From: Heliocidaris erythrogramma
Lineage: Eukaryota; Echinodermata; Echinoidea; Camarodonta; Echinometridae
Reading direction: 5' to 3'
NCBI GenBank assembly: GCA_025617745.1
Contig: CM046861.1
Location: 16,217,563 to 16,281,562, forward strand
Length of the DNA stretch: 64,000 nucleotides
The notes under the pieces: generated by a model
The model's input: only the letters and a program-made list of their open reading frames with translations
The model's database searches: none
Told to the model about the DNA's origin: nothing
Shown: positions 37,606 to 64,000 of the stretch, piece after piece
Numbering within the stretch: the stretch's first letter is position 1
Layout of the letters: each line of letters begins with the position of its first letter
Translations under genes and position numbers: made by a program

Positions 37606-38116
37606 GTACTTGAATAACTTCACGTTTCACGAAAGTCGAACAATAAAAAAAACTGAATAAGCTGATGAGCTAAATTTGGAAAACTTTATTAGCAAGCTTT
37701 TCTTTGAAAAACAATATGACAGCACCGTATTTGGGGGTTAATGACTGATCAACATTAAGCATTTAACTGTAAGTTCAAACTTGGAAATAGCAATTTATAT
37801 CCCGTTCCGCTTCTTTTTGTTAAAGTAAAAATCACTTATAAACTGAACATGTAAAGTCATAAGTCGACGCAGGATTAAAACGAAACATTTGAATGCAGTA
37901 GAATTCATGTAATCAAATTCATCTAAATATTTTGGGTCGAGCAGTTTATTATACTTGCCTCCCGAAAACATAAATCTTGCGCGGCACTTTCAGAATTGCA
38001 CAAGATAGTGAATGGCAACATACAAGTAGATGTACAAAGATCTGCATTATGATAAATGATACTAATAACTTGAAATATACATTCATAGAAAAAGAAATTA
38101 TCGTTAACTGAACAAA
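37606..38116. other. Sequence before the assembly gap
   Basis: AT-rich, presumably intron of the coiled-coil gene; nothing recognised. Confidence 0.4.
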
Positions 38117-38616
38117 NNNNNNNNNNNNNNNNNNNNNNNNNNNNNNNNNNNNNNNNNNNNNNNNNNNNNNNNNNNNNNNNNNNNNNNNNNNNNNNNNNNN
38201 NNNNNNNNNNNNNNNNNNNNNNNNNNNNNNNNNNNNNNNNNNNNNNNNNNNNNNNNNNNNNNNNNNNNNNNNNNNNNNNNNNNNNNNNNNNNNNNNNNNN
38301 NNNNNNNNNNNNNNNNNNNNNNNNNNNNNNNNNNNNNNNNNNNNNNNNNNNNNNNNNNNNNNNNNNNNNNNNNNNNNNNNNNNNNNNNNNNNNNNNNNNN
38401 NNNNNNNNNNNNNNNNNNNNNNNNNNNNNNNNNNNNNNNNNNNNNNNNNNNNNNNNNNNNNNNNNNNNNNNNNNNNNNNNNNNNNNNNNNNNNNNNNNNN
38501 NNNNNNNNNNNNNNNNNNNNNNNNNNNNNNNNNNNNNNNNNNNNNNNNNNNNNNNNNNNNNNNNNNNNNNNNNNNNNNNNNNNNNNNNNNNNNNNNNNNN
38601 NNNNNNNNNNNNNNNN
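38117..38616. other. Assembly gap (500 N)
   Basis: Exactly 500 N, typical of a scaffold join of unknown size. The missing 3' exons of the coiled-coil gene may lie here or beyond. Confidence 0.99.
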
Positions 38617-38659
38617 TCTGTAGTGTAACGCTGCAAAATTATCTCAGCTTTATTTCCCG

Positions 38660-39290
38660 TGAGTGGAAAAAATTCCCGCCCCCCCCCCCCCCCCCACTCG
38701 GAGGTCGAAGGGACCGCAAGCGAGTTCCCAAAATCTCCGGTAAAGGGGTACTTTTTTGGCTACACAATCCGGCCCGTGAATTGTAAAAAAAGGGGTGTTT
38801 TTTATCTTTCACCCGGAGATTTCATTAAAACAAGGGGTGTTTTTCTTTCTCTCTCACCTGAGAAATTAAAAAGGGGGGTTATGAAATATCTTGAAAAAAT
38901 CATCAAATTCCTGACATTCCTGCTAGTTTTTGATAGCTCATTCAGCTCATTCTTATGATTGCATTGAGTTCTGAGATATCATTTTGAACATAAAAACATC
39001 TCTTCCAAGGTATTGTAATGACAGCTTACTTGGGAGGGGGGGGGGGGGGGGGGGTTGGTGTCTGTCCTGAGATATGGGGTTGGAATGAGAGCTCACCTGA
39101 GATAGGGGTGTACATTGAGCAGTGTTCTGAATTTAGGGGGGTCTCCAAGGCAGGAAAAGCCCGCGATAGGGGGTTCAGAAATGTTGGTAGCCCTGAGATA
39201 GGGGGTGCTTTCAAAGGAGGGAACAAGCATACGCGTACCCTAAATAATACTGAGTGGGGGGGGGGGGGGCGGGAAAAAATTTTACTCATA
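38660..39290. repeat. Poly-G/C-bounded repeat with degenerate units
   Basis: Poly-C near 38680-38695 and poly-G near 39034-39053 and 39255-39268. In between, degenerate 'cctgagatagggggt' motifs recur about every 30-35 bp from 39068 to 39208, and related 'acccggagatttcat' and 'cacctgagaaatt' earlier. A complete element is not delimited. Confidence 0.5.
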
Positions 39291-39807: not shown

Positions 39808-40884
39808 TGTATAGCGCATAGACTTCGGCCATTATTCTTATTTTCGAAAACTATGTGCTCGTTACTGTCCCTTCAAAGTCAGGGGCCACTGAGCGTTTTT
39901 GAAAGGGGTGGGGGAGGGGCTGATCTGTTTTCACTCATTAATGACAATTTTCGAGCCTTTTTCCGAGAATTTTTCAACGTGTCTACTCAAAGAAAAAAAA
40001 GGGGGGTTGCAGCCCCCCCCCCCCTCCTGCTTCCGCGGCCAATGAAAGTCATTGGCATTCGATATGCATTGAAGTCATAGGTTGCATTCATTGATTACCA
40101 TGACTTTAAAAGGACAGTAATGCCATTGGAAATATAAGCACATTGGATTAGGCCCTATATTGATTCTGTTTGGATTCGAAGAAGGCCTTTGTGACTCAGA
40201 AACACAATCAAATGTTACTTCAATTTTGTAATAATTGCTTATGAATCCGTCGAATAGTAGATGGAACATGAGAGGAAAATATTGAAAATTTGTAGAGTCT
40301 GTGTTGAGAGAAAGGAGCACAATTTTGAACAGGCGTAACCCTTGCCCCTTACCAATTAAAAATGATTTTTTACCCTACTGCATGATGCAATGAAATAGTG
40401 ATTCAGCAAAATTTGGAAGATGCCATGCCCATGGCATAACCCTACCAGTTAAATTTGTCTTCTGGCCTCTCAATATCTGAAGACACTTGGTCTTTCAAAT
40501 AAATGAATGCACTATACAGAAAGTAACAGAATCAAAGTAATGATGTATTAACTATTGACGCATATCTTTTATAAGAAAGTTTTCGTTTTGTATTATGCTG
40601 TTTTTACCGTATAGGCCTACTAACAAACACTTGAACTAAAGTCTAAAGACTAGCACTCAGTCTCATCGAGCTGCCTTTGGCGACCACTCCAGCGACCACT
40701 CGGGGGCACCGAAGCGTGACGCGGCCGAGAACAATGGAAAAATCGCTCTACGGTGTCCTCAAAAGAGACAAAACCAAACGGAAAAAGTATTGACACTGTA
40801 AATCCGTTTCGTTACCGGTCGGAAACTTCAATTCAGGCAGTAGGCTTAATGAGGCGACGCAGCATTGTACTCCGGGATTAATGA
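39808..40884. other. Region between hairpin and satellite
   Basis: A poly-G/C repeat piece at about 39880-40046. The last ~250 bp before the array are GC-richer (ACCACTCGGGGGCACCGAAG near 40690) and may be the outer end of the large element. No gene seen. Confidence 0.4.
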
Positions 40885-43800
40885 GCGTGTGAAATATTCA
40901 GCTTTATGATGGTATATGCCACATACCGGGGCAAGATGTCTGGATCTTACTATTTTAAATTAGTCCTTTAGACACCACATAAATAACCCGGCTTCCAAAG
41001 AAGAGTCAGTCGGCATAATGATTGCAAAATACAGTGGTTAAATAAAAGCTCTCTCAAATTTCCATCGACATTTTTTATTCTTAGTTAATTTACTAAATGA
41101 ATGCTGAAGATATCAGCTTTCGGGTAGTAAATGCCACATACTGGGGACATATTACACTCCGCATTAGAGCGCTCGTATTGTATTATGGAGCTTCGTAACT
41201 CAATAATGAAGTGCTGAAGAAAAAGTGTTATAAATGTTCGCAAGACATTTCATATTCTTAGCTGATTACACCATGAAATAGAGGAGATATTCAGCTTTAT
41301 CATGGTATAAGTCGCTATGCTTAGCAAGTTGTCTGGATCTTACTGTTTAAACTTCAACACGGCTATATTCTCGGTATTATTACGCTTCGCATGAACAATA
41401 CCACCAGTGCAATATTCTATGCAGCTTCACGTAACTCAATAATGAAGTTCGGAAGATAAAGTGTTATAAATGTTCGCAAGACATTTCATATTCTTAGCTG
41501 ATTACACCATGAAAAAGAGGAGATATTCAGCTTCATCATGGTATAGGTCACTATGCTTAGCAAGTTGTCTGGATCTTACTGTTTAAACTTCAACACGGCA
41601 CATATTCTCGAAATATTACACTTCGTATGAACATTAGCGCCAGTGCGGTATTACATGCGGCTTCACGTTACTCAATAATGAAGTTCGGAAGATAAAGTGT
41701 TATAAATGTTCGCAAGACATTTCATATTCTTAGCTGATTACACCATGAAATAGAGGTGATATTCAGCTTTATCATGGTATAGGTCACTATGCTTAGCAAG
41801 TTGTCTGGATCTTACTGTTTAAACCTCAACACGGCACATATTCTCGAAATATTACACTCCGCATTAGAGCGCTCGTACTGTATTATGGAGATTCGTAACT
41901 CAATAATGAAGTTGTGCAGCAAAAGTGTTATAAATGTTCGCAAGACATTTCATATTCTTAGCTGATTACACCATGAAATAGAGGGGATATTCAGCTTTAT
42001 CATGGTATAACTCACTATGCTTAGCAAGTTGTCTGGATCTTACTGTTTAAACTTTAACACGGCACATATTCCCGAAATATTACACTTCGTATGAACAATA
42101 GCGCCAGTGCGGTATTACGGGGCTTCACCTTACTCAATAATGAAGTTCGGCAGAAATAGTGTTGTAAATGTTCGCAAGACATTTCATATTCTTAGCTGAT
42201 TACACCATGAAATAGAGGTGATATTCAGCTTTATCATGGTATAGGTCACTATGCTTAGCAAGTTGTCTGGATCTTACTGTTTAAACTTCAACACGGTATA
42301 TATTCTCGATATTATTACGCTTCGCATGAACAATAGCGCCAGCGCTATATTCTATGCAGCTTCACGTAACTCAATAATGACGTTCTGCAGAAAAAGTGTT
42401 ATAAATGTTCGCAAGACATTTCATATTCTTAGCTGATTACACCATGAAATAGAGGGGATATTCAGCTTTATCATGGTATAGGTCACTATGCTTAGCAAGT
42501 TGTCTGGATCTTACTGTTTAAACCTCAACACGGCACATATTCTCGAAATATTACACTCCGCATTAGAGCGCTCGTACTGTATTATGGAGATTCGTAACTC
42601 AATAATGAAGTTGTGCAGCAAAAGTGTTATAAATGTTCGCAAGACATTTCATATTCTTAGCTGATTACACCATGAAATAGAGGAGATATTCAGCTTTATC
42701 ATGGTATAGGTCACTATGCTTAGCAAGTTGTCTGGATCTTACTGTTTAAACTTCAACACGGTATATATTCTCGATATTATTACGCTTCGCATGAACAATA
42801 GCGCCAGCGCTATATTCTAAGCAGCTTCACGTAACTCAATAATGACGTTCTGCAGAAAAAGTGTTATAAATGTTCGCAAGACATTTCATATTCTTAGCTG
42901 TTTACACCATGAAAAAGAGGAGATATTCAGCTTTATCATGGTATAACTCACTATGCTTAGCAAGTTGTCTGGATCTTACTGTTTAAACTTCAACACGGCA
43001 CATATTCTCGATATTATTACGCTTCGCATGAACAATAGCGCCAGTGCAATATTCTATGCAGCTTCACGTAACTCAATAATGAAGTTCGGAAGATAAAGTG
43101 TTATAAATGTTCGCAAGACATTTCATATTCTTAGCTGATTACACCATGAAATAGAGGTGATATTCAGCTTTATCATGGTATAGGTCACTATGCTTAGCAA
43201 GTTGTCTGGATCTTACTGTTTAAACTTCAACACGGCACATATTCTCGAAATATTACACTTCGTATGAACATTAGCGCCAGTGCGGTATTACATGCGGCTT
43301 CACGTTACTCAATAATGAAGTTCGGAAGATAAAGTGTTATAAATGTTCGCAAGACATTTCATATTCTTAGCTGATTACACCATGAAATAGAGGTGATATT
43401 CAGCTTTATCATGGTATAGGTCACTATGCTTAGCAAGTTGTCTGGATCTTACTGTTTAAACCTCAACACGGCACATATTCTCGAAATATTACACTCCGCA
43501 TTAGAGCGCTCGTACTGTATTATGGAGATTCGTAACTCAATAATGAAGTTGTGCAGCAAAAGTGTTATAAATGTTCGCAAGACATTTCATATTCTTAGCT
43601 GATTACACCATGAAATAGAGGGGATATTCAGCTTCATCATGGTATAACTCACTATGCTTAGCAAGTTGTCTGGATCTTACTGTTTAAACTTCAACACGGC
43701 ACATATTCCCGAAATATTACACTTCGTATGAACAATAGCGCCAGTGCGGTATTACGGGGCTTCACCTTACTCAATAATGAAGTTCGGCAGAAATAGTGTT

Positions 43801-46800
43801 GTAAATGTTCGCAAGACATTTCATATTCTTAGCTGATTACACCATGAAATAGAGGTGATATTCAGCTTTATCATGGTATAGGTCACTATGCTTAGCAAGT
43901 TGTCTGGATCTTACTGTTTAAACTTCAACACGGTATATATTCTCGATATTATTACGCTTCGCATGAACAATAGCGCCAGCGCTATATTCTATGCAGCTTC
44001 ACGTAACTCAATAATGACGTTCTGCAGAAAAAGTGTTATAAATGTTCGCAAGACATTTCATATTCTTAGCTGATTACACCATGAAATAGAGGGGATATTC
44101 AGCTTTATCATGGTATAGGTCACTATGCTTAGCAAGTTGTCTGGATCTTACTGTTTAAACCTCAACACGGCACATATTCTCGAAATATTACACTCCGCAT
44201 TAGAGCGCTCGTACTGTATTATGGAGCTTCGTAACTCAATAATGAAGTTGTGCAGCAAAAGTGTTATAAATGTTCGCAAGACATTTCATATTCTTAGCTG
44301 ATTACACCATGAAATAGAGGGGATATTCAGCTTTATCATGGTATAGGTCACTATGCTTAGCAAGTTGTCTGGATCTTACTGTTTAAACTTCAACACGGTA
44401 TATATTCTCGATATTATTACGCTTCGCATGAACAATAGCGCCAGCGCTATATTCTAAGCAGCTTCACGTAACTCAATAATGACGTTCTGCAGAAAAAGTG
44501 TTATAAATGTTCGCAAGACATTTCATATTCTTAGCTGTTTACACCATGGAAAAGAGGAGATATTCAGCTTTATCATGGTATAACTCACTATGCTTAGCAA
44601 GTTGTCTGGATCTTACTGTTTAAACTTCAACACGGCACATATTCTTGAAATAATATACACTCCGCATTAAAGCGCTCGTATTGTATTATGGAGCTTCGTA
44701 ACTCAATAATGAAGTTCTGCAGAAAAAAAGTGTTATAAATGCTCGCAAGACATTTCATATTCTTAGCTGTTTACACCATGAAAAAGAGGAGATATTCAGC
44801 TTCATCATGGTATAACTCACTATGCTTAGCAAGTTGTCTGGATCTTACTGTTTAAACTTCAACACGGCACATATTCCCGAAATATTACACTTCGTATGAA
44901 CAATAGCGCCAGTGCGGTATTACGGGGCTTCACCTTACTCAATAATGAAGTTCGGCAGAAATAGTGTTGTAAATGTTCGCAAGACATTTCATATTCTTAG
45001 CTGATTACACCATGAAATAGAGGAGATATTCAGCTTTATCATGGTATAGGTCACTATGCTTAGCAAGTTGTCTGGATCTTACTGTTTAAACCTCAACACG
45101 GCACATATTCTCGAAATATTACACTCCGCATTAGAGCGCTCGTACTGTATTATGGAGCTTCGTAACTCAATAATGAAGTTCGGCAGAAATAGTGTTGTAA
45201 ATGTTCGCAAGACATTTCATATTCTTAGCTGATTACACCATGAAATAGAGGGGATATTCAGCTTTATCATGGTATAGGTCACTATGCTTAGCAAGTTGTC
45301 TGGATCTTACTGTTTAAACTTCAACACGGTATATATTCTCGATATTATTACGCTTCGCATGAACAATAGCGCCAGCGCTATATTCTATGCAGCTTCACGT
45401 AACTCAATAATGACGTTCTGCAGCAAAAGTGTTATAAATGTTCGCAAGACATTTCATATTCTTAGCTGATTACACCATGAAATAGAGGGGATATTCAGCT
45501 TTATCATGGTATAGGTCACTATGCTTAGCAAGTTGTCTGGATCTTACTGTTTAAACCTCAACACGGCACATATTCTCGAAATATTACACTCCGCATTAGA
45601 GCGCTCGTACTGTATTATGGAGATTCGTAACTCAATAATGAAGTTGTGCAGCAAAAGTGTTATAAATGTTCGCAAGACATTTCATATTCTTAGCTGATTA
45701 CACCATGAAATAGAGGGGATATTCAGCTTTATCATGGTATAGGTCACTATGCTTAGCAAGTTGTCTGGATCTTACTGTTTAAACTTCAACACGGCATATA
45801 TTCTCGATATTATTACGCTTCGCATGAACAATAGCGCCAGCGCTATATTCTATGCAGCTTCACGTAACTCAATAATGACGTTCTGCAGAAAAAGTGTTAT
45901 AAATGTTCGCAAGACATTTCATATTCTTAGCTGTTTACACCATGAAATAGAGGAGATATTCAGCTTTATCATGGTATAACTCACTATGCTTAGCAAGTTG
46001 TCTGGATCTTACTGTTTAAACTTCAACACGGCACATATTCTTGAAATAATATACACTCCGCATTAAAGCGCTCGTATTGTATTATGGAGCTTCGTAACTC
46101 AATAATGAAGTTCTGCAGAAAAAAGTGTTATAAATGCTCGCAAGACATTTCATATTCTTAGCTGTTTACACCATGAAAAAGAGGAGATATTCAGCTTTAT
46201 CATGGTATAACTCACTATGCTTAGCAAGTTGTCTGGATCTTACTGTTTAAACTTCAACACGGCACATATTCCCGAAATATTACACTTCGTATGAACAATA
46301 GCGCCAGTGCGGTATTACGGGGCTTCACCTTACTCAATAATGAAGTTCGGCAGAAATAGTGTTGTAAATGTTCGCAAGACATTTCATATTCTTAGCTGAT
46401 TACACCATGAAATAGAGGAGATATTCAGCTTTATCATGGTATAGGTCACTATGCTTAGCAAGTTGTCTGGATCTTACTGTTTAAACCTCAACACGGCACA
46501 TATTCTCGAAATATTACACTCCGCATTAGAGCGCTCGTACTGTATTATGGAGCTTCGTAACTCAATAATGAAGTTGTGCAGCAAAAGTGTTATAAATGTT
46601 CGCAAGACATTTCATATTCTTAGCTGATTACACCATGAAATAGAGGGGATATTCAGCTTTATCATGGTATAGGTCACTATGCTTAGCAAGTTGTCTGGAT
46701 CTTACTGTTTAAACTTCAACACGGTATATATTCTCGATATTATTACGCTTCGCATGAACAATAGCGCCAGCGCTATATTCTATGCAGCTTCACGTAACTC

Positions 46801-48630
46801 AATAATGACGTTCTGCAGAAAAAGTGTTATAAATGTTCGCAAGACATTTCATATTCTTAGCTGTTTACACCATGAAATAGAGGAGATATTCAGCTTCATC
46901 ATGGTATAACTCACTATGCTTAGCAAGTTGTCTGGATCTTACTGTTTAAACTTCAACACGGCACATATTTGAAATAATATACACTCCGCATTAAAGCGCT
47001 CGTATTGTATTATGGAGCTTCGTAACTCAATAATGAAGTTCTGCAGAAAAAAGTGTTATAAATGCTCGCAAGACATTTCATATTCTTAGCTGTTTACACC
47101 ATGAAAAGAGGAGATATTCAGCTTTATCATGGTATAGGTCACTATGCTTAGCAAGTTGTCTGGATCTTACTGTTTAAACCTCAACACGGCACATATTCTC
47201 GAAATATTACACTCCGCATTAGAGCGCTCGTACTGTATTATGGAGATTCGTAACTCAATAATGAAGTTGTGCAGCAAAAGTGTTATAAATGTTCGCAAGA
47301 CATTTCATATTCTTAGCTGATTACACCATGAAATAGAGGGGATATTCAGCTTTATCATGGTATAGGTCACTATGCTTAGCAAGTTGTCTGGATCTTACTG
47401 TTTAAACTTTAACACGGCACATATTCCCGAAATATTACACTTCGTATGAACAATAGCGCCAGTGCAGTATTACGGGGCTTCACCTTACTCAATAATGAAG
47501 TTCGGCAGAAATAGTGTTGTAAATGTTCGCAAGACATTTCATATTCTTAGCTGATTACACCATGAAATAGAAGAGATATTCAGCTTTATCATGGTATAGG
47601 CCACTATGCTTAGCAAGTTGTCTGGATCTTACTGTTTAAACTTCAACACGGCACATATTCTTGAAATAATATACACTCCGCATTAAAGCGCTCGTATTGT
47701 ATTATGGAGCTTCGTAACTCAATAATGAAGTTCTGAAGAAAAAGTGTGTAAATGTTCGCAAGACATTTCATATTCTTAGCTGATTACACCATGAAATAGA
47801 AGAGATATTCAGCTTTATCATGGTATAGGCCACTATGCTTAGCAAGTTGTCTGGATCTTACTGTTTAAACTTTAACACGGCACATATTCCCGAAATATTA
47901 CACTTCGTATGAACAATAGCGCCAGTGCGGTATTACGGGGCTTCACCTTACTCAATAATGAAGTTCGGCAGAAATAGTGTTGTAAATGTTCGCAAGACAT
48001 TTCATATTCTTAGCTGATTACACCATGAAATAGAGGAGATATTCAGCTTTATTATGGTATAGGTCGCTATGCTTAGCAAGTTGTCTGGATCTTACTGTTT
48101 AAACTTCAACACGGCACATATTCTTGAAATAATATACACTCCGCATTAAAGCGCTCGTATTGTATTATGGAGCTTCGTAACTCAATAATGAAGTTCGGAA
48201 GAAAAAGTGTTGTAAATGTTCGCAAGACATTTCATATTCTTAGCTGATTACACCAAGAAGTAGAGAAGATATTCAGCTTTATCGTGGTATAGGTCACTAT
48301 GCTTAGCAAGTTGTCTGGATCTTACTGTTAAAACTTGAACACGGCACATATTCTCGATATTATTACGTTTCGTATGAACAATAGCGCCAGTGCGGTAATA
48401 CGGGGCTTCACCTTACTCAATAATGAAGTTCGGCAGAAATAGTGTTGTAAATGTTAGCAAGACATTTCATATTCTTAGCTGATTACACCATGAAATAAAA
48501 GGGATATTCAGCTTTGTCATGGTATAGGTCACTATGCTTAGCAAGTTGTCTGGATCTTACTGTTTAAACTTCACCCCGGCACATAGTCTCGAAATATTAC
48601 ACTCCGCCTTAAATCGCTTGTATTGTATTA
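40885..48630 (+). repeat. Satellite array, left arm (~228-237-bp monomer)
   Basis: GCTTAGCAAGTTGTCTGG recurs about every 228-237 bp (41319, 41555, 41791, 42019, 42253, 42490, 42718 and onward). Each monomer has a conserved half (TATAAATGTTCGCAAGAC, GATATTCAGCTTTATCATGG, TTACTGTTTAAAC) and a variable half of at least three types. A seven-monomer block is repeated with a 1637-bp shift (about 41360-42980 and 43000-44620). Shorter shifts of 465 and 930 bp occur near 45.3-46.9 kb. The first monomers (40.9-41.2 kb) are the most diverged. Confidence 0.95.
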
Positions 48631-51561
48631 CTACATTGGTAGTAAATCTCTCTCCAAAAGCTCTCTAAGCATTAAGCTTCTGATTCCGGACAGAGTGTCT
48701 GATTTCGAATCGAATGTCAGTCGTTTACCTTTCATTAGAGATCGACCATACATGCAGATAAAAGTTCCGCAATTATTAGCATCGTTCTGGGTTGGGAACC
48801 CACTTGGGACAACTATCTTCCATCGACTGATATTATCATGTAGATAGAAGGAATCTACATCAGTTCTAAGTGCACGAAGATACTCACACAAGTAGATAGC
48901 TCTATTTGCAGCCATTATTGTTGCTTCAGATGCACCACCCATTGGATCCATGATAGATAAAATGAAATAATTGGGCTCTACCACAAAAAGAACCCAGTGC
49001 TTACTGTAGGAAAATGGAATTAAAACTAGGTTCCTAAGTACCCAGTTTCGTGTCCTGTTCAGAAGGCTAGCCTCTCGAGCATACCAGTTTTGAGATCTGT
49101 TACAAGTTATTTTGCTGCCTGCCCAGCAAGCATTCATTAACAATATTTCATCACGAGAAGATCCTATGCTATCTCTAACAAAATTCAAATAAGCGTCAAT
49201 AACAGCGTCATTAAACCAATTATCACTTGCAAGAATGGACAAATCTCGCTTGTGCAATTCAAACTTGCCTACTTTGTGACATTGAGGCAGGATTTCGTCA
49301 TAGAATGTGGGATATAGTTCAAGAATTTCGCTATTAAATCCGTGAGGCAAGTTTACAAATACACCTACCGGGTATGGATTTTCTGAAATACTTATTTTCC
49401 TGAAAACGTTGGGGGTTTGGACAGCATTATATGTTAGCAACATGTTTCTCCCATGCACAATCTCAATTAGTTCATCCAGTTTAGTGTTGGATTTTTGATT
49501 GCCATCTTCCAGGAAAGTCTGCTTCCCAACTCTTCGATATTTCTTTACACCATCAGCGTCAAATACCGTCACAAAGCGAAGCTTGTAAGATCTCTGCCCA
49601 AATTCTTTTGAACATGCTGTTAGTGAATCTTCAATATTAAATCGGGTTCTGTCGTTAATTGCCCCTACAATACCATTAGCAGAGGTAGCAATTTTGTACT
49701 TTCGTACAATGTGTTCTCTATCGCATTTGCATACAGATTTTTTCATCATGTTATGAGAGCGCATTACATTCTCAACGGATATATCGAGACTATGAAAATG
49801 TTCAAAAAATGGTATTATGTCTACATAGTCTGATACCCATTGTTTGCAATTTAAACATTCGTCACGACATAGAACTTTGATTGCTGTATCTATGTTTTTT
49901 TGATGTAATTCAAATAATCCAGCCTTCACAAGTTCTTGCATAGTCTTAAAATTGAGCTCTTGAATGTCATCATTTCCTGAAGGCATAACAGAAATCAAAT
50001 CATTGGTCACCGTATTTAAATTTTGGCTCTCTGATGAAACACACATCTCTAACGTTTTATGGTAAATTGCTATATACGCAGACCTGTCTGAGTCATTTTG
50101 ATTTGTTTCATCGTCTACAAGACGTCGGACACGATCGTCATCAATGAGCACGTACCGATCTTGTGTCTTGACTACTGAGGTGTAGTGCCCTAAATTGGCG
50201 AAATTGCCGTGGTGGCGTATAACAGAAACTAACTCATAGTTGGACACTGATTTTCCAGTATCAACAGAGATTTTTTCTTGCACATTAACTCTTGAATTAA
50301 GCTTCAACATATGACCACTATCTGTAGTCAAGCCAGTCGATCTTTGAATTTGCATGATTAGCATATCTGGACAATGTATGATATCTCTAGAAAGTTCGGC
50401 AGTTTGACTAGAACATTTATTGCATTTAAATTTTATTTTCTCTTTATGCTTCATCTGCCTAATGATTATATCTTGAATAGACAATCGCTGATCTTTCGCA
50501 CTTGGAATAGTCAATGTCCATACATTCTCATGCTCAAGTGTCAATGTTGTATTTTTGCACAAAATGCAAGTTTTTTGAACTTGCCAGGTTCCATTACATA
50601 ATTTCGTAAGTCCACAAGTCCGTAAGAAAGGGATTATCAAACTAACAATAAATTCATGAGCATCTTGTTGATTTCCAATACGAAAATGACATGCATTGCT
50701 TACAGCATAAAGGGCACTACTTAGCTCGTCTATGAGTAGGGTGGAACCGTTTTGCATTGACAAGCGTTTTAACAGTTTAAAAACCTCCTCAAATGCTTTG
50801 TTTTTCGTATCGTCATCGGTTAAACATGGGATGCTGTCAAAGTCTTCAAGGACAGAACGGAGTGGAGAAAATGCAAGTATTGCCTGAATAACTGAATTGA
50901 ACCAGCAGTTATTTAGGCCGTTTTGTATCCCGCTTAAATGGGCAAATTGACCCTTCTGTCTCTGAATGTATTTCAGTGGATTTTTTTTAGGGGCTCTCTG
51001 GTAAACGCCAACCTTTTTACGATTGGTCTTTTTATTCCACTCTTCTTTAATGGTTACAGTTGCGCTTGGTCTGATTGAAGTCTCTGATGAATTCAGTGTA
51101 ACATCTTGATCATTATCAACCAAGGGAGAAGATATTGGATTGACGACATCCGAACACAGAGGGACAGTATCTCTTTCTTCACTTGATATACCAAGAGACA
51201 ATGATCGCTTTTTCCTACCAGAAACCCTCGTTGATTGGTCGTTATGACTCCTTTCGATACCCCTAAGATCATGCGCCAGAACTGCAATAAATTCATCAAC
51301 CCTGTTTATTTTCCGCGTACCTAACTGAATATTTTTCAGAACGCCCATTCGTTGTTCTGCATGACCAGTTGTTTTTGGCAATAGAGATATCTCAGTCTTG
51401 TAATCTGTGTAGGATTTGTTCTGATTATATTTATATCTGGACAGGTCTCCTAGCAAAATACTGGACCACAGTATACATGTTGGTAGAAGGTCTTTTAGAA
51501 GTTTACGATAGAGTTCTTCATTGAAGTCTGGATTATCTGGCACTGAAAGCTGCTCTGACAT
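48631..51561 (-). CDS. Exon E, C-terminal part: USP deubiquitinase plus Ulp1 protease (976 aa)
   Basis: One intact frame; the frame is also open for about 45 nt upstream of the ATG, joining the transposase. Residues ~20-105 look like the transposase C-terminus (LLPTCILWSSILLGDLSRY, HAEQRMGVLKN). Residues ~210-502 are a USP (C19) domain: Cys219 in GLNNCWFNS, QQDAHEF at 298-304, zinc ligands CILC (332-335) and CNKC (380-383), His459 in GHYTSV and the acidic D474-D476. Residues ~770-940 are a Ulp1/SENP (C48) domain: DNWFNDAVIDAYL, His855 in KHWVLFV, Asp872 in MDPMGG, Gln925 and Cys931 in NNCGTFICMY. Both catalytic sets are complete. The stop is at 48631, at the satellite junction. Probable roles are removing ubiquitin and SUMO-like tags from transposase or host factors; that is inference. 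Confidence 0.85.
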   Translation of the reverse strand: MSEQLSVPDNPDFNEELYRKLLKDLLPTCILWSSILLGDLSRYKYNQNKSYTDYKTEISLLPKTTGHAEQRMGVLKNIQLGTRKINRVDEFIAVLAHDLRGIERSHNDQSTRVSGRKKRSLSLGISSEERDTVPLCSDVVNPISSPLVDNDQDVTLNSSETSIRPSATVTIKEEWNKKTNRKKVGVYQRAPKKNPLKYIQRQKGQFAHLSGIQNGLNNCWFNSVIQAILAFSPLRSVLEDFDSIPCLTDDDTKNKAFEEVFKLLKRLSMQNGSTLLIDELSSALYAVSNACHFRIGNQQDAHEFIVSLIIPFLRTCGLTKLCNGTWQVQKTCILCKNTTLTLEHENVWTLTIPSAKDQRLSIQDIIIRQMKHKEKIKFKCNKCSSQTAELSRDIIHCPDMLIMQIQRSTGLTTDSGHMLKLNSRVNVQEKISVDTGKSVSNYELVSVIRHHGNFANLGHYTSVVKTQDRYVLIDDDRVRRLVDDETNQNDSDRSAYIAIYHKTLEMCVSSESQNLNTVTNDLISVMPSGNDDIQELNFKTMQELVKAGLFELHQKNIDTAIKVLCRDECLNCKQWVSDYVDIIPFFEHFHSLDISVENVMRSHNMMKKSVCKCDREHIVRKYKIATSANGIVGAINDRTRFNIEDSLTACSKEFGQRSYKLRFVTVFDADGVKKYRRVGKQTFLEDGNQKSNTKLDELIEIVHGRNMLLTYNAVQTPNVFRKISISENPYPVGVFVNLPHGFNSEILELYPTFYDEILPQCHKVGKFELHKRDLSILASDNWFNDAVIDAYLNFVRDSIGSSRDEILLMNACWAGSKITCNRSQNWYAREASLLNRTRNWVLRNLVLIPFSYSKHWVLFVVEPNYFILSIMDPMGGASEATIMAANRAIYLCEYLRALRTDVDSFYLHDNISRWKIVVPSGFPTQNDANNCGTFICMYGRSLMKGKRLTFDSKSDTLSGIRSLMLRELLERDLLPM

Positions 51562-51584: not shown

Positions 51585-52305
51585 TCAGTTTTGCCGTCTG
51601 GTCATTAAAAATGTTTTGAAGGGAGAAGGTATCATGTTTAAAAAGTCTGCCTCAGTAGATATAAATGAGATAGACTCATCTTCTTCCCCAGCAACAAAGT
51701 CAGTGTTGTCATTTTCAGATTCGTTCTGTCTATAATCAAAGGTCTTGTTCCCAAGATTATCAATAGCATCGTGCAACTTCTTAGCATGTTCTAAGAAAAA
51801 ATCATTTTTGTGTTGAGATAGTAGTACAACAGCTAAGCTATTGAAAATGTAGACAAATTCTTCCCAATAAATGGCATTCAATAATAAACTAATCGCGTAT
51901 GACACAAATCGGGAATGTCTGCTATGAGCTTTACACAGATTCTTTACATTCTTCATAAAGTGACTGGTACATGCGTGAGGAACTGTTAGGTGTCTGAAAT
52001 CACAGTCCATTCCCTTCCCAGTAACGATTCTCCAGGCTCGCTCCATGAACCCGGACAAGTTATTACAATTAAATATTTTGATTGTTCCCATCAGAAACAC
52101 CCAGGCCCTGTCACTGCAAATCATCTTCGGCCGACAGAGATTTGAATGTCCGAATATTTTTTTCTCTGCGGCTCGGAAAACATTGATCCAGTCTAGAATT
52201 GCGGGCTCAGAGTGATCTTCGCTAATCATCCAAGCAAGTGGAAGTGTGTGCCCTTTACCATTCTTTGGTCCTATGCAAAGTTCATAGTACAGTAAACGTT
52301 TTTTA
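51585..52305 (-). pseudogene. Exon E: MULE transposase core
   Basis: It reads NKKRLLYYELCIGPKNGKG, then PLAWMISEDHSEPAILDW. The likely second catalytic Asp is in PKMICSDRAWVFLMG (52110-52112). The MULE-type C-x2-H signature follows in VPHACTSHFMKNVKNL. A conserved-looking Glu pair (IYWEEF, about 51860) is a candidate for the third catalytic residue. The frame stops at 51585 (TGA), but a -1 shift near the A5/T5 run at about 51602-51606 leads into the next frame without a gap. Confidence 0.72.
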
Positions 52306-53245
52306 TTAAAGTAGAACACTAATGATTTTAAATATTGGCTTAATAGTTATTATTGCATAGATGGCATAAATTAAACAAGGTTATCCAAATTTAAAGCTTG
52401 GAAACATTTGAATTAATGATTATTATCAATTATAAAACGGTAAAATACAGCCCCCGATATAGCAGCTGAAAAGCTCCTTGAACGCTGCTGAGATGTGTGA
52501 CGACACAAGAGGGGCGAGTCCTGTCTAAGCAGACGATGTCCCATAACATTATACACATTTTTCAGTGCCTGTTTTGTCATCTCCTCTTCACTTATTTCTC
52601 TTACTTGACTAGCGTCAGTCTTAATGTTAGTCTGTTGCCTCACTCTTAACTTCGTGTATGGTATTATTTTGATGAAAAATGCAGCGTTAAAAAAATAAAG
52701 GAATCAGTCACTTGTAAACAAAATAAGACGGCATTGTATTTTCAGCTGCTTGCACCAGGGCATGTTCGGCGTTTCAAGAGGGAACGAATACCATCCAGCT
52801 ATTATTCGCAGGGCTTTTCAATTTGAAAATGGGGTTTATTTCATTGATCATTGACCCTTCTCCTGTGTATTTACAATCAAACGGTTTTAGTTATCAGAAT
52901 CAGTTCACTTTCCCTTTTAGAATGGTGTGAAATAAGGTCATGTTTAAATGTACCAAACTCTTTATAATTTGATAAATAATTGCATTGCAATTACGTTCAT
53001 TCATTATAGGACGTCGTCTGCTTAAGCAGGATCGATCCCTCGTATGACGACATCAAAACATCGCTATATTTCTGGCGAATCCTCGGATATTCCACATGCT
53101 GAGAAGAGCTTTTATTTATGTTGTTTTTATAATCATCATATACGCAGTTGACATAAAACTTATACGATTGCCATCTGTAAGCTTCCCAATTTCTAGTGAT
53201 ACATTAATTGCAATATTTGTGATTTTCTTGAGTGTTCTACTTTAA
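52306..53245 (-). mobile_element. TTAA-flanked element, copy 3, inside the transposase
   Basis: TTAA at both borders, with inverted ends AGTAGAACACT / AGTGTTCTACT. It is homologous to 22626-23692 and 30586-31530. Removing the element with one TTAA rejoins the transposase in frame (CVRSSL to NKKRLLYY), so this is a clean insertion between the first and second catalytic Asp. It carries the short frame EEEMTKQALKNVYNVMGHRL, of unknown meaning. Confidence 0.88.
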
Positions 53246-53744: not shown

Positions 53745-54739
53745 TCCTCAAATGTACACTTTGCGTAGGTACGGAATATAATTTCTGGAAATCGGTTCTT
53801 AGCTACGGTTACATTATGATGCCTAAATGCGAATACACAGTAAGGGTTGCTTTCCTTTAACCCATTCATTACGATATGTTCCCAGTTATTACGCTCAAAT
53901 TGTCTACCCTTCTGATTCTGTCTTAATTTATTCCACTCGTTTTCTGGAAATATGAAGGATGTACACTCAGGCAAACTGTACATGAAAAAATCGTTTTCCG
54001 CGCAATTATTATGAGATTCATTTACTGTAGAAACAGGGGTTGATTGATTACATAACAGGTTGACGGAACTCTTTTGAACGACGGTAGACGAATTTGATTC
54101 AGGTGTGATATCATTGTTAACCTGTTCCTTTTCCGATTTTACTGGGGTATCTAACGAATAGATTTCATCTGACGATTTGTTAATATTTGCCGTACAGAGG
54201 TTACTTTCATCACTACTTGATTCATTGCATCCCCTAAGATCTACGTCGAGTTCTGATTCACATGTATTTGAATTAGCCAAATCATTTTGCTTTGACTCGA
54301 TTTCAGATCTCGCAGGAAGGGACTGTCCTTCAGATTGAGCTGGAGTATTTTGCCTTAAATCTACGGGGATTTGATGTTTTAGTTCGTCTGCCATGTTTTC
54401 GTTTTCAATTTCAACGTCAACATTTACGGCGACGTCATCCCTGGCTACGTTTATGAGATTCCTATTTCTATGACTCGTTTTCTTTACATGTTCCAATTCT
54501 GGGCTTGAGAGGGCGGTATCTGTCTGTAATGACATTGGAGAGGATGTTACCCTTCTTCCCTGTATATCATTTTGAAAATAGGATGCTTCACTATCACCGT
54601 CTTGTAATTCTGCCGACACATCATTTAAACCCTCAGTAATAGACCTATCATCTGCGACACGCTCGACTGAAATATTTTGAAGAGTACTATTTGATATTAT
54701 CAGCTGCCCATTCCACACTAATTGACGTCCCCCCCCCCC
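53654..54739 (-). pseudogene. Exon E: acidic linker and Cys-containing domain
   Basis: A frame after the C-run reads RQLVWNGQLIISNSTLQN and then a long acidic, Ser/Asn-rich linker. Near its end is NPYCVFAFRHHNVTVAKN, then YAKCTFEECTVKVNI, which looks like the small zinc-binding/FLYWCH-like domain found before many MULE transposase cores. A frameshift near 53670 follows. The domain name is tentative. Confidence 0.55.
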
Positions 54740-55373
54740 CATGACAATTGTCAACCCCACAATGAAATAAAACACCCCTTCCACTAACGATTGTTTTGGG
54801 TATCTTCATGCACGTGTAATGATACCATTTCTTGCAACCGTCACAGCTCATATACTGTTTACTTTTGTCATATGTTGTCATGCAAATGCAGTGGAGATTT
54901 TTTTCTTTTTTACCCTTCCCATCAACAACCCAATTATCTGACATGCGCTTAGCCTTTTTAGGGCGAGGACCCAATTCACTTAAGATATCCTGAGCTACAT
55001 TAGAATTGGAATCTATCACATTTTCCAGTTCCTGATCATTATTAATGTTTCCACTATCTACACGTTTTTCCATCATTGCACAATGAACCATCTTTTGAAT
55101 ATTACCCCTGTTTCCGCTCCAATATCTTTGAAGCAAAATAACTGACTTTTTATGGCGCGTAGTTGGCCATCCTAGCTTAACAGCAACTTGCTTGTAGAAA
55201 TTCGTGTCAAACACCGGGAGATTTAGACCACCAATAACGTCAACTATTGCATTTGCAATTTCCTCGAAATTAATCCGCGTGCGCTTACCTTTAGAAAACC
55301 GTTTCTTGGGCGGTGAACCACCGAGTATTTGACACTTCTGATCGAGTTGAGGATGAGGACCCTGATCTAGTTC
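54740..55373 (-). CDS. Exon E, N-terminal part: PHD finger
   Basis: The exon starts after the acceptor aaattgcag with ELDQGPHPQLDQK. A helical basic region follows (RINFEEIANAIVDVIGGL to QRYWSGNRGNIQKM). The PHD-type C4HC3 finger is at 54744-54890: CIC, CDGCKKWYHYTC and CGVDNC. PHD fingers usually read histone H3 tails, which could guide target choice or regulation. The frame is broken immediately downstream at the C-run 54730-54739, so it ends artificially with SVEWAADNIK at 54687. Confidence 0.8.
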
Positions 55374-57925: not shown

Positions 57926-58729
57926 CTGCTTTAAAGCTTGATTTGCTCTTCTGTCGATATGTTAAATCATTGTCGGGGAACTCTCGGACAGTAGCCGCCT
58001 TTCGACGTCGGGTCGAAGAAGTCGGTATCTGTGGCTGGGTAGATGTCGGCACTTGTGGCTGACGGGTTGGTGGCTGAGTAGATGTCGGCATCTTTGGATG
58101 GCGTCTTGGTGGTTGAGTAGGAGACCTCACCCGCTGTGGCTGACGGGTTGGTGGCTGGGTAGATGTCGGCATCTGTTGGTGACGACTTGGTGGTTGAGTA
58201 GATGTCGGCATCTTTTGGTGACGACTTGGTGGTTGAGTAGGAGACGTCACCCGCTGTGGCTGACGGGTTGGTGGCTGGGTAGATGTCGGCATGTGTGGCT
58301 GTCGGGTTGGTGGCTGGGTAGATGTCGGCATCTGTTGGTGACGACTTGGTGGTTGAGTGGGAGACGTCACCAGCTGTGGCTGACGGGTTGGTGACTGGGT
58401 AGATGTCGGCATGTGTGGCTGACGGGTTGGTGGCTGGGTAGATGTCGGCACTTGTGGCTGACGGGTTGGTGGCTGAGTAGATGTCGGCATCTGTTGGTGA
58501 CGACTTGGTGGTTGAGTAGGAGACGTCACCCGCTGTGGCTGACGTGTTGGTGGCTGGGTAGATGTCGGCATCTGTTGGTGACGACTTGGTGGTTGAGTAG
58601 GAGACGTCACCCGCTGTGGCTGACGGGTTGGCGACTGGGTAGATGTCGGCATGTGTGGCTGACGGGTTGGTGGCTGGGTAGATGCCGGCATCTGTTGTTT
58701 CTGCTCAACTTGCTGCTCTGTTTTACACC
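57926..58729 (-). CDS. Exon B: Pro/Thr/Gln tandem-repeat exon
   Basis: The acceptor (ttatattcacag) and donor (GTGAAA after AAA GCA G) give 804 nt that fit the phases of exons A and C. Most of it is tandem 13-residue repeats of two types, MPTSTQPPTRQPQ and RVTSPTQPPSRHQ. A basic tail follows (SSTRRRKAATVREF). It is low-complexity and probably a disordered linker. Copy number is likely to vary between element copies. Confidence 0.65.
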
Positions 58730-59214: not shown

Positions 59215-59490
59215 CTGTGGAGGTTAAGATTGATGGTTTTGGTAGTGTTGAGGTTAAGATTGATGGTTTTGGTAGTGGAGGGAAGGATGACGTTGATGAA
59301 ACGTCCACGGATGAACCTCCACCATCAGTCTCAGGCCACATGATCTCTACCATCTTCCTGTAGACCACATGTAGTAGCCGGGAACGCCAGTACACTCGCT
59401 GAGATGTAGTCCGTCTCGAGCCCACAACTTCTTGTTGCTTGTAGGATAGTATGGGGTGACGTCCATCCACGAAGCACCTTCCTCGTGGCA
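59215..59490 (-). pseudogene. Exon A: SGNH/GDSL-hydrolase C-terminal remnant
   Basis: It reads KLWARDGLHLSE, the Asp-x-x-His block (block V) of SGNH/GDSL hydrolases. After a frameshift near 59400 it continues with VYWRSRLLHVVYRKMVEIMW and SSTSSFPPLPKPSILTST. The donor GTAGGC follows ACA G at 59215. The N-terminal part with the catalytic Ser is missing because the satellite begins at 59491. In the satellite's own frame an ATG (59529) reads MLSKLSGSYCLNF straight into this exon. Either the exon was truncated by the array, or the array now supplies the 5' end. Confidence 0.55.
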
Positions 59491-62400
59491 GAAGTTTAAA
59501 CAGTAAGATCCAGACAACTTGCTAAGCATAGCGACCTATACCACGATAAAGCTGAATATCTCCTCTTTTCCATGGTGTAAACAGCTAAGAATATGAAATG
59601 TCTTGCGAACATTTATAACACTTTTTCTGCAGAACTTCATTATTGAGTTACGTGAAGCTGCATAGAATATTACACTGGCGCTATTGTTCATGCGAAGCGT
59701 AATAATATCGAGAATATAGCCGTGTTGAAGTTTAAACAGTAAGATCCAGACAACTTGCTAAGCACAGTGACCTATACCATGATAAAGCTAAATATCTCCT
59801 CTTTTTCATGGTGTAATCAGCTAAGAATATGAAATGTCTTGCGAACATTTATAACACTTTTGCTGCAGAACTTCATTATTGAGTTACGAAGCTCCATAAT
59901 ACAGTACGAGCGCTCTAATGCGGAGTGTAATATTTCGAGAATATGTGCCGTGTTGAGGTTTAAACAGTAAGATCCAGACAACTTGCTAAGCACAGTGACC
60001 TATACCATGATAAAGCTAAATATCTCCTCTTTTTCATGGTGTAATCAGCTAAGAATATGAAATGTCTTGCGAACATTTACAACACTATTTCTGCCGAACT
60101 TCATTATTGAGTAAGGTGAAGCCCCGTAATACCGCACTGGCGCTATTGTTCATACGAAGTGTAATATTTCGGGAATATGTGCCGTGTTTAGGTTTAAACA
60201 GTAAGATCCAGACAACTTGCTAAGCATAGTGACCTATACCATGATAAAGCTGAATATCTCCTCTATTTCATGGTGTAATCAGCTAAGAATATGAAATGTC
60301 TTGCGAACATTTACAACACTTTTTCTGCAGAACTTCATTATTGAGTTACGTGAAATCCGCATTGGCGCTAATGTTCATACGAAGTGTAACATTTCGAGAA
60401 TATGTGCCGTGTTGAAGTTTAAACAGTAAGATCCAGACAACTTGCTAAGCATAGCGACTTATACCACGATAAAGCTGAATATCTCCTCTTTTCCATGGTG
60501 TAAACAGCTAAGAATATGAAATGTCTTGCGAACATTTATAACACTTTTTCTGCAGAACTTCATTATTGAGTTACGTGAAGCTGCATAGAATATTACACTG
60601 GCGCTATTGTTCATGCGAAGCGTAATAATATCGAGAATATATGCCGTGTTGAAGTTTAAACAGTAAGATCCAGACAACTTGCTAAGCATAGCAACCTATA
60701 CCATGATAAAGCTGAATATCTCCTCTTTGTCATGGTGTAAACAGCTAAGAATATGAAATGTCTTGCGAATATTTATAACAATTTTTTGCAGAACTTCATT
60801 ATTGAGTTACGTGAAGCTGCATTGAATATTGCACTGGTGGTATTGTTCATGCGAAGCGTAATAATACCGAGAATATAGCCGTGTTGAAGTTTAAACAGTA
60901 AGATCCAGACAACTTGCTAAGCATAGCGACCTATACCATGATAAAGCTGAATATCTCCTCTTTGTCATGGTGTAAACAGCTAAGAATATGAAATGTCTTG
61001 CGAATATTTATAACACTTTTTCTGCAGAACTTCATTATTGAGTTACGTGAAGCTGCATAGAATATTGCACTGGTGGTATTGTTCATGCGAAGCGTAATAA
61101 TATCGAGAATATATGCCGTGTTGAAGTTTAAACAGTAAGATCCAGACAACTTGCTAAGCACAGTGACCTATACCATGATAAAGCTAAATATCTCCTCTTT
61201 TTCATGGTGTAATCAGCTAAGAATATGAAATGTCTTGCGAACATTTACAACACTATTTCTGCCGAACTTCATTATTGAGTAAGGTGAAGCCCCGTAATAC
61301 CGCACTGGCGCTATTGTTCATACGAAGTGTAATATTTCGGGAATATGTGCCGTGTTTAGGTTTAAACAGTAAGATCCAGACAACTTGCTAAGCATAGTGA
61401 CCTATACCATGATAAAGCTGAATATCTCTTCTATTTCATGGTGTAATCAGCTAAGAATATGAAATGTCTTGCGAACATTTACAACACTATTTCTGCCGAA
61501 CTTCATTATTGAGTAAGGTGAAGTCCCGTAATACAGTACGAGCGCTTTAATGCGGAGTGTAATATTTCAAGAATTTGTGCCGTGTTGAAGTTTAAACAGT
61601 AAGATCCAGACAACTTGCTAAGCATAGTGACCTATACCATAATAAAGCTGAATATCTCTTCTATTTCATGGTGTAAACAGCTAAGAATATGAAATGTCTT
61701 GCGAACATATATAACACTTTTTTCTGCAGAACTTCATTATTGAGTTACGAAGCTCCATAATACAGTACGAGCGCTCTAATGCGGAGTGTAATATTTCGAG
61801 AATATGTGCCGTGTTGAGGTTTAAACAGTAAGATCCAGACAACTTGCTAAGCATAGTGACCTATACCATGATAAAGCTGAATATCTCCTCTATTTCATGG
61901 TGTAATCAGCTAAGAATATGAAATGTCTTGCGAACATTTACAACACTTTTTCTGCAGAACTTCATTATTGAGTTACGTGAAATCCGCATTGGCGCTAATG
62001 TTCATACGAAGTGTAACATTTCGAGAATATGTGCCGTGTTGAAGTTTAAACAGTAAGATCCAGACAACTTGCTAAGCATAGCGACCTATACCATAATAAA
62101 GCTGAATATCTCCTCTATTTCATGGTGTAAACAGCTAAGAATATGAAATGTCTTGCGAACATTTATAACACTTTTTCTGCAGAACTTCATTATTGAGTTA
62201 CGTGAAGCTGCATAGAATATTGCACTGGTGGTATTGTTCATGCGAAGCGTAATAATACCGAGAATATAGCCGTGTTGAAGTTTAAACAGTAAGATCCAGA
62301 CAACTTGCTAAGCATAGCGACTTATACCACGATAAAGCTGAATATCTCCTCTTTTCCATGGTGTAAACAGCTAAGAATATGAAATGTCTTGCGAACATTT

Positions 62401-64000
62401 ATAACACTTTTTCTGCAGAACTTCATTATTGAGTTACGTGAAGCTGCATAGAATATTACACTGGCGCTATTGTTCATACGAAGTGTAATATTTCGGGAAT
62501 ATGTGCCGTGTTTAGGTTTAAACAGTAAGATCCAGACAACTTGCTAAGCATAGTGACCTATACCATGATAAAGCTGAATATCTCTTCTATTTCATGGTGT
62601 AATCAGCTAAGAATATGAAATGTCTTGCGAACATTTACAACACTATTTCTGCCGAACTTCATTATTGAGTAAGGTGAAGTCCCGTAATACAGTACGAGCG
62701 CTTTAATGCGGAGTGTAATATTTCAAGAATTTGTGCCGTGTTGAAGTTTAAACAGTAAGATCCAGACAACTTGCTAAGCATAGTGACCTATACCATAATA
62801 AAGCTGAATATCTCTTCTATTTCATGGTGTAAACAGCTAAGAATATGAAATGTCTTGCGAACATTTATAACACTTTTTTCTGCAGAACTTCATTATTGAG
62901 TTACGTGAAGCTGCATAGAATATAGCGCTGGCGCTATTGTTCATGCGAAGCGTAATAATATCGAGAATATATACCGTGTTGAAGTTTAAACAGTAAGATC
63001 CAGACAACTTGCTAAGCATAGTGACCTATACCATGATAAAGCTGAATATCCCCTCTATTTCATGGTGTAATCAGCTAAGAATATGAAATGTCTTGCGAAC
63101 ATTTATAACACTTTTGCTGCACAACTTCATTATTGAGTTACGAAGCTCCATAATACAGTACGAGCGCTCTAATGCGGAGTGTAATATTTCGAGAATATGT
63201 GCCGTGTTGAGGTTTAAACAGTAAGATCCAGACAACTTGCTAAGCATAGCGACTTATACCACGATAAAGCTGAATATCTCCTCTTTTCCATGGTGTAAAC
63301 AGCTAAGAATATGAAATGTCTTGCGAACATTTATAACACTTTATCTTCCGAACTTCATTATTGAGTAACGTGAAGCCGCATGTAATACCGCACTGGCGCT
63401 AATGTTCATACGAAGTGTAATATTTCGAGAATATGTGCCGTGTTGAAGTTTAAACAGTAAGATCCAGACAACTTGCTAAGCATAGTGACCTATACCATGA
63501 TAAAGCTGAATATCTCCTCTATTTCATGGTGTAATCAGCTAAGAATATGAAATGTCTTGCGAACATTTATAACACTTTTTCTGCCGAACTTCATTATTGA
63601 GTTACGTGAAGCTGCATAGAATATTGCACTGGTGGTATTGTTCATGCGAAGCGTAATAATACCGAGAATATAGCCGTGTTGAAGTTTAAACAGTAAGATC
63701 CAGACAACTTGCTAAGCATAGCGACTTATACCACGATAAAGCTGAATATCTCCTCTTTTCCATGGTGTAAACAGCTAAGAATATGAAATGTCTTGCGAAC
63801 ATGTATAACACTTTTTCTGCAGAACTTCATTATTGAGTTACGTGAAGCTGCATAGAATATTACACTGGCGCTATTGTTCATGCGAAGCGTAATAATATCG
63901 AGAATATATGCCGTGTTGAAGTTTAAACAGTAAGATCCAGACAACTTGCTAAGCATAGCGACCTATACCATGATAAAGCTGAATATCTCCTCTTTGTCAT
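59491..64000 (-). repeat. Satellite array, right arm (inverted)
   Basis: The same monomer family as the left arm in reverse orientation (GTTTAAACAGTAAGATCC, CCAGACAACTTGCTAAGC), repeated about every 230 bp to the end of the window. The same variable-half types are mixed here in another order. The array continues beyond the window. Confidence 0.95.
59529..59650 (-). promoter_or_regulatory. Possible TATA-type promoter in the last satellite monomer
   Basis: On the minus strand each monomer has GTTATAAATGTTCGC about 90-100 bp upstream of the ATGCTTAGC that starts MLSKLSG. The monomer next to exon A (TATAAA near 59610) is positioned to start transcription into the element gene. This is inference; TATAAA is common by chance in AT-rich DNA. 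Confidence 0.3.

Follow-up and report, generated by a model that had tools for sequence, protein, structure and literature searches.

A satellite-ended DNA transposon of Heliocidaris erythrogramma whose predicted transposase carries both a USP-type and a Ulp1-type protease domain

In the 64,000-nucleotide stretch of the sea urchin Heliocidaris erythrogramma analysed here (contig CM046861.1, positions 16,217,563 to 16,281,562 of the forward strand; hereafter the window), a minus-strand frame of 976 codons, with its ATG at 51561 and its stop at 48631, carries both a USP-type and a Ulp1-type protease domain, which raises the question of what two deconjugating enzymes do in one transposon protein. 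The answer that we favour, with somewhat better than even confidence, is that the frame belongs to a large DNA transposon of the Rehavkus/Mutator type, in whose protein, about 2,000 amino acids long, a probable transposase core is combined with a chromatin reader and with two enzymes of the deconjugating type. A mechanism for the movement of this element can be inferred.

Two protease domains in one predicted transposase

The domains that carry this reading are the following.

48631..51561, minus strand: 976-amino-acid frame with USP and Ulp1, the C-terminal half of the transposase
50062..50931, minus strand: USP (UCH) domain, residues 211-500 of the frame (Pfam 8e-29; best solved matches USP12/46)
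48706..49221, minus strand: Ulp1 (Peptidase_C48) domain, residues 781-952 of the frame (Pfam 6.7e-11; among solved sequences the whole protein matches SENP1 best)
54735..54905, minus strand: PHD finger (Pfam 8.6e-7; the identical region of the genomic copy L009 matches the BPTF PHD at 4.4e-9)

An earlier note on this DNA, made from the letters alone, had proposed that both proteases lie in one intact frame with their catalytic sets. The profile check bears this out, both Pfam matches being above their curated cut-offs, and every residue number that had been given fits the frame: C219 in NNCWFN, H459 in GHYTS and D474-476 in LIDDD for the USP domain, and H855 in KHW, D872 in MDPMGG, Q925 in PTQND and C931 in NNCG for the Ulp1 domain. 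Judged by sequence, the Cys box, His box, Asp/Asn position and UCH profile of Peptidase C19 are all present in the former, and the His-Asp-Gln-Cys set and profile of Peptidase C48 in the latter. The closest solved sequences in the window family are USP12/46 for USP and SENP1, a deSUMOylase, for Ulp1, while in the distant relative L017 they are USP28 and SENP1, respectively. The two domains appear to be intact predicted enzymes of the ubiquitin-removing and the SUMO-removing type. The plus strand opposite the frame is crowded with stops, and the 5.9-kb parent frame is not a product of chance, since the longest open frame across 300 of its base shuffles was 186 codons.

The description of the product as one transposon protein with two intact-looking deconjugases of different families is right but incomplete: the 976 codons make up the C-terminal half only, the whole protein having about 2,000 amino acids. 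The Met at 51561 is internal, and the frames of the copies L009 and L010 continue upstream, being open from stop to stop over 1,981 and 1,975 codons, respectively (two of the nine copies compared). The L009 frame (P0001) presents the PHD finger at 209-242, the core at about 745-907, USP at 1216-1505 and Ulp1 at 1786-1957. The best solved relative of the PHD finger is that of BPTF, which has four aromatic cage positions; by eye, three of these are retained in the window family and all four in L017, so that reading of H3K4me3 by the predicted finger is likely.

The copy search covered the window's own genome of 1.06 Gb in 26 contigs, where at least 56 stretches match the 976-amino-acid frame and five places, the window among them, are stop-free across all 976 positions. 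Among 21 element loci (the window and L009-L028, with L033-L035 as flanks beside them), USP is present in 20, Ulp1 in 20, the core in 19 and all three in 18, a co-occurrence that is partly built in because the loci were gathered with protease-bearing queries; L020 is without Ulp1, L021 without the core, and L028 has Ulp1 alone. Relatives are 26-71% identical to the window family by domain and preserve the domain order. A distant one, L017 (PHD 54%, core 40%, USP 26%, Ulp1 26%), keeps the succession PHD, core, USP, Ulp1, with the PHD in one frame and the other three in a second, overlapping one. L018, L019 and L020 are 41-71% identical; the first two keep core, USP and Ulp1 in broken frames, whereas L020 keeps core and USP with no match to Ulp1, and none of the three has the PHD match that L017 has. 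The catalytic residues of both proteases are retained in the aligned rows covering them, apart from an Asn that replaces the first of the three Asp in the USP domain of L020. In L017, an extra tail beyond Ulp1 (after about 6914, to 7603) holds an F-box-like stretch by eye (LPLEMWDKIIRITLRSDYSQIYKFLRVNSIFRALA), where Pfam reported none.

The comparison of nonsynonymous with synonymous rates (dN/dS) that the earlier note had called for gave, relative to L009, 0.22-0.28 for USP (four of four comparisons) and 0.18-0.32 for Ulp1 (three of three), values that are rough since dS between families is near saturation, and in which L018 and L019, as close kin, do not count independently. For the core it is 0.36 with L017, the two other comparisons being saturated (pN/pS, the uncorrected ratio, 0.22 and 0.33). 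These values point to purifying selection on both predicted protease domains, which would show that they matter, not what they cut. Copies on several contigs, and diverged families of this genome as well, have the same fusion, and because relatives keep the domains together at a dN/dS of about 0.2-0.3 on both proteases, a one-off fusion is excluded. Outside this genome, a search for relatives of the core alignment in viral_contigs and genome_contigs gave 59 and 39 pattern matches with none confirmed, which says little, these being poor sources for animal transposons.

The element and its window copy

Around the domains listed above, the following features of the element were recorded in the window.

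40656..40664, no strand: left copy of the 9-bp target-site duplication CTCAGTCTC; its right counterpart is beyond the window, at L033 4443-4451
40665..41183, minus strand: 3' terminal and subterminal region with the element end ATCGAGCTGCC; same end with different flanks in L010, L012 and L028
41184..48580, no strand: left array, about 32 tandem units each about 236 bp long (found with blastn of a single unit and with Tandem Repeats Finder)
51585..52346, minus strand: central portion of the transposase-like core, with SDRAW, CxxH and W-x-E, in a frame of its own in the window copy
52320..53241, no strand: nested insertion (about 0.9 kb) that interrupts the core; inverted AGTAGAACACT ends, TTAA at each junction; absent from L009
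53654..54805, minus strand: linker portion of the transposase, as a stop-to-stop frame
54915..55349, minus strand: N-terminal region without a named domain (tblastn between copies; partly alignable with L017)
58031..58697, minus strand: Pro/Thr/Gln-rich repeat exon of a predicted upstream GDSL-hydrolase gene (repeat array; matches L034, where the exon was recognized by eye)
59380..59490, minus strand: GDSL-hydrolase exon remnant; the sequence beyond it is absent from the window copy and present in nine others
59491..64000, no strand: right array of about 236-bp units, inverted relative to the left; about 37 units in total, to window-equivalent 68072

The element measures 27,715 bp, from its left end at 40665 to its right end at L033 4442 (window-equivalent 68379). 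The 9-mer CTCAGTCTC stands exact beside both predicted termini, each time 14 bp outside a common GGCGACCAC motif, and the two termini share an imperfect inverted repeat, with an alignment score of 55 against a maximum of 34 in 300 shuffles. The left-type end is sharp, given the differing flanks in the window, L010, L012 and L028, and eight of eight ends read by coordinates begin AT[CT]GAGCT[GA]CC (L039 being the L010 end again); the ends in L040-L042 sit on the 5' side of their copies. The terminal 226 bases are found at 40 places or more (23 at 98-100% and 17 at 94-95%; 40 of 115 candidates were scored). Where the edge of the array was examined, in four copies, that of L013 passes directly into unrelated sequence and that of L014 into N.

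Several observations on the ends stand by themselves. At C17:22739760-22739985, C8:27668682-27668907 and C16:25654873-25655098, a 3'-type terminus lies on the 5' side, unlike in the window copy, as judged by position relative to the transposase; these copies possibly have swapped or homogenised ends. The length of the 236-bp array differs between copies (L036 as against 41184-48580 in the window), and in the C7 copy the 5' array spans to the end of the 9 kb examined. From L033 4443 onward, just beyond the right target duplication, a reading frame (ATGGCAGCAAATACC...) ends by eye at GTGAGT; it resembles the first coding exon of a host gene and, as one case, would fit an insertion near a promoter.

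The window copy has its transposase in four separate frames of 275, 383, 253 and 1,006 codons, and is broken upstream of the 976-amino-acid frame and interrupted by the nested insertion, itself probably a non-autonomous TTAA-type element. That the 976-amino-acid frame is still intact is probably owing to the youth of the copy, since silent-site differences among six copies amount to 0-0.8% in all 15 pairs. The N-terminal region, which found no match in the first 2,600 bases of L018 or L019, is possibly DNA-binding.

A second gene is predicted upstream of the transposase, on the same strand and inside the element. By eye, the minus strand of L034 shows at 3566-5454 the exons of a GDSL-type hydrolase, bordered by GT/AG signals and with a Pro/Thr/Gln-rich repeat tail; two of them joined at GT/AG match Lipase_GDSL_2 at 2.8e-10, above the cut-off, whereas each alone falls below it. 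All 701 bases searched of the GDSL stretch are present in eight copies, including L034, and 557 in one, while the window copy retains just the first 235 before the array begins. Judging by splice phases, the predicted GDSL gene would stop short of the transposase gene, for which they suggest a short first exon with EDIDEILK at its end.

Elsewhere in the window, an open frame at 11892-12494 (minus strand) carries a THAP domain (Pfam 4.8e-16) and comes perhaps from another transposon. At 37923-38786, over about 0.8 kb, open frames overlap in several reading frames on both strands, in the pattern of a stop-free tandem repeat, where Tandem Repeats Finder listed no array.

The core and its affinities

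The core motifs DATGS, SDRAW, HACTSH (a CxxH) and W-x-EF are conserved in four families, with the D of SDRAW lost in L020, and the aligned positions in four sequences are D147, D223, C270-x2-H273, W305 and E307. On these motifs the core is probably DDE-like, its third acid being uncertain. Mutator and hAT share a CxxH, as well as a W placed between the second D and the E, and both features matter in Muta1 (PMC5225508); C/DxxH is listed for hAT, Kolobok, P, MuDR, IS256 and Dada in PMC3706591.

A number of results weigh against the favoured reading. No Pfam transposase profile matched the four core members, for which just three weak and unrelated matches were obtained (E 0.12-0.5), and a comparison with solved structures gave just two matches at chance level; the DDE assignment is therefore one by motif. 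The spacing also differs from that of Muta1: here the W stands 2 residues before the E and the E 84 after the second D, if the E of WEEF is the one meant, as compared to 18 and 136 in Muta1 (PMC5225508). The L020 core is without the second D. The 9-bp duplication has been read at both ends in the window copy only, and in L014, L015 and L016 the frame is disrupted within or near Ulp1. To this is added the roughness of the dN/dS values, as well as pN/pS of 0.38-1.5 in the five pairs involving the window copy. The latter is as expected of a copy released from selection; pairs without the window copy also reach 0.5 and 0.67, and one pair has four amino-acid changes and zero silent ones, all these counts being small.

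The Pfam MULE profile is absent among matches up to E 10 for the four core members, HMMER filters dropping most weak matches; PHROGs gave no transposase-type match and NCBIfam one at chance level. Ginger1, KDZ and other named cores were dropped as candidates, no transposase profile being found among the Pfam matches: both the integrase profile that a Gypsy-like core of the Ginger1 type would show and the KDZ transposase profile, which would mark KDZ / Zisupton, are absent from them.

The anatomy resembles that of Rehavkus, which is described (PMC6446971) as an outgroup or member of the Mutator superfamily in arthropods and annelids, with a PHD finger, 9-bp duplications, terminal inverted repeats of 26-400 bp, one open reading frame and a minisatellite before the 3' terminal repeat. 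The PHD finger in the transposase, satellite units within the termini and, in the window copy, a 9-bp target duplication are common to both. The present element differs in its length of 27.7 kb, in units of about 236 bp forming arrays of several kb, in USP and Ulp1, since the Rehavkus descriptions consulted mention no protease (PMC6446971), and in a probable second gene; against the one open reading frame described for Rehavkus stand here one large open frame and the predicted GDSL-hydrolase gene upstream of it. Membership is not claimed, as the likeness is to the published description of Rehavkus and not to its sequence.

With Mutator-like elements, for which Ulp1 is reported in hydra, lancelet and plants and OTU in MuDR-6_HM, the element shares a ubiquitin-like protease, duplications within the 8-11 bp range and the CxxH; target duplication and terminal inverted repeats, the marks of Mutator (MULE), are found here as 9 bp and an imperfect repeat. 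The statement of the earlier note that Ulp1 domains occur in MULE-type elements agrees with what is published for Mutator transposases (PMC2836005). Unlike in the present case, where USP and Ulp1 stand together and the core matches no Pfam transposase profile, one protease is reported in those elements. The same paper reports Ulp1, OTU and PHD in Ginger1 and Mutator transposases, Ginger1 bearing a C-terminal OTU or Ulp1 and once Ulp1 with PHD; its core is a Gypsy-like integrase with one protease, whereas here no integrase profile matches. A USP-type domain on a transposase is also on record, in the Trichomonas protein XP_001314237.1, which joins transposase_11 to Peptidase C19 (PMC2836005). 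This USP-type domain sits on a different transposase family, and the passage at hand mentions neither Ulp1 nor PHD. The pair of USP and Ulp1 in one transposase was not found in the literature searched, with Repbase and animal protein databases outside the search and earlier unnoticed entries quite possible. As compared to the literature searched, the novelty would be the occurrence of this pair in one transposase, with a PHD finger besides, across several families within one genome, and the presence of a GDSL-hydrolase-like gene in the element.

Possible modes of action

The favoured reading proposes that the protein would bind its own terminal repeats, that the BPTF-like PHD finger would dock at H3K4-methylated promoter chromatin, and that the DDE core would cut and insert with a 9-bp stagger. 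USP and Ulp1 would remove ubiquitin and SUMO from the transposase as well as from proteins present where the element is excised or inserted. The complex would thereby stay stable, SUMO-dependent silencing would be relaxed and breaks would become accessible to repair. Both domains would work in cis, their targets being the transposase and, at its sites, chromatin or repair proteins. That ubiquitin and SUMO pathways act in transposition was already proposed in the Ginger paper (PMC2836005). A bolder and more tentative form, to which we give appreciably less than even weight, sees an old separate lineage of satellite-ended transposons, in which a transposase with built-in ubiquitin and SUMO erasers as a fixed part of movement would be steered by the H3K4me3-reading PHD, perhaps mature at a conserved LGG, and be accompanied by a GDSL-hydrolase gene.

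A counter-silencing role of the predicted proteases is plausible; the earlier note had suggested that the element counters ubiquitin- and SUMO-based silencing or degradation of its transposase. In a rival reading along this line, the two enzymes would form an anti-silencing module whose targets, for example histone ubiquitin or silencing factors that depend on SUMO, belong to the host and are reached in trans, the transposase itself not being the substrate. The PHD reader in the same protein and the constraint on both protease domains speak for this, and an anti-silencing protein is known in the plant Mutator-type group VANDAL (PMC6446971), but the physical fusion to the transposase favours action nearby. 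We regard such action in trans as rather unlikely.

Less probable again, though still to be reckoned with, is self-processing, in which USP and/or Ulp1 would cut a polyprotein after Gly-Gly and release the transposase from the N-terminal part, as some Ulp1-like viral proteases do in maturing polyproteins. A single open frame of about 2,000 codons is polyprotein-like, and an LGG precedes the N-terminal region at the same aligned position in the window family and L017, with an LAGG near the same place in L020 by eye. However, the comparison covers three families only, GG motifs are common, no second GG is shared outside the enzyme domains among the proteins compared, and the Ulp1 domain is nearest to SENP1, a deSUMOylase.

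That the proteases are passengers, captured host gene fragments kept without function, is very improbable. Mutator-type elements do capture such fragments (PMC6446971) and the GDSL-hydrolase-like gene likewise lies inside the element, but the domain order is the same in a distant relative, the catalytic residues persist in the covering aligned rows (with the L020 Asn as the exception), dN/dS is 0.18-0.32, and both proteases share one open frame with the core. An assembly or annotation error joining two genes, which the earlier note had named as one outcome that would undo its claim, is ruled out by the recurrence of the fusion on several contigs and in diverged families, and nothing was found in its favour.

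The proposed action in cis of a transposase with two erasers gains its interest from the recurrence of ubiquitin-like proteases in unrelated eukaryotic transposons. Here a single protein holds the enzymes for ubiquitin and for SUMO in cis, and there are young copies that are near-identical and have open frames, so that single point changes could tell apart what each activity contributes to excision, insertion and silencing. At the level of the genome, the element may be a source of satellite DNA, as the kilobase satellite arrays inside its termini suggest a route by which transposons could seed such DNA.

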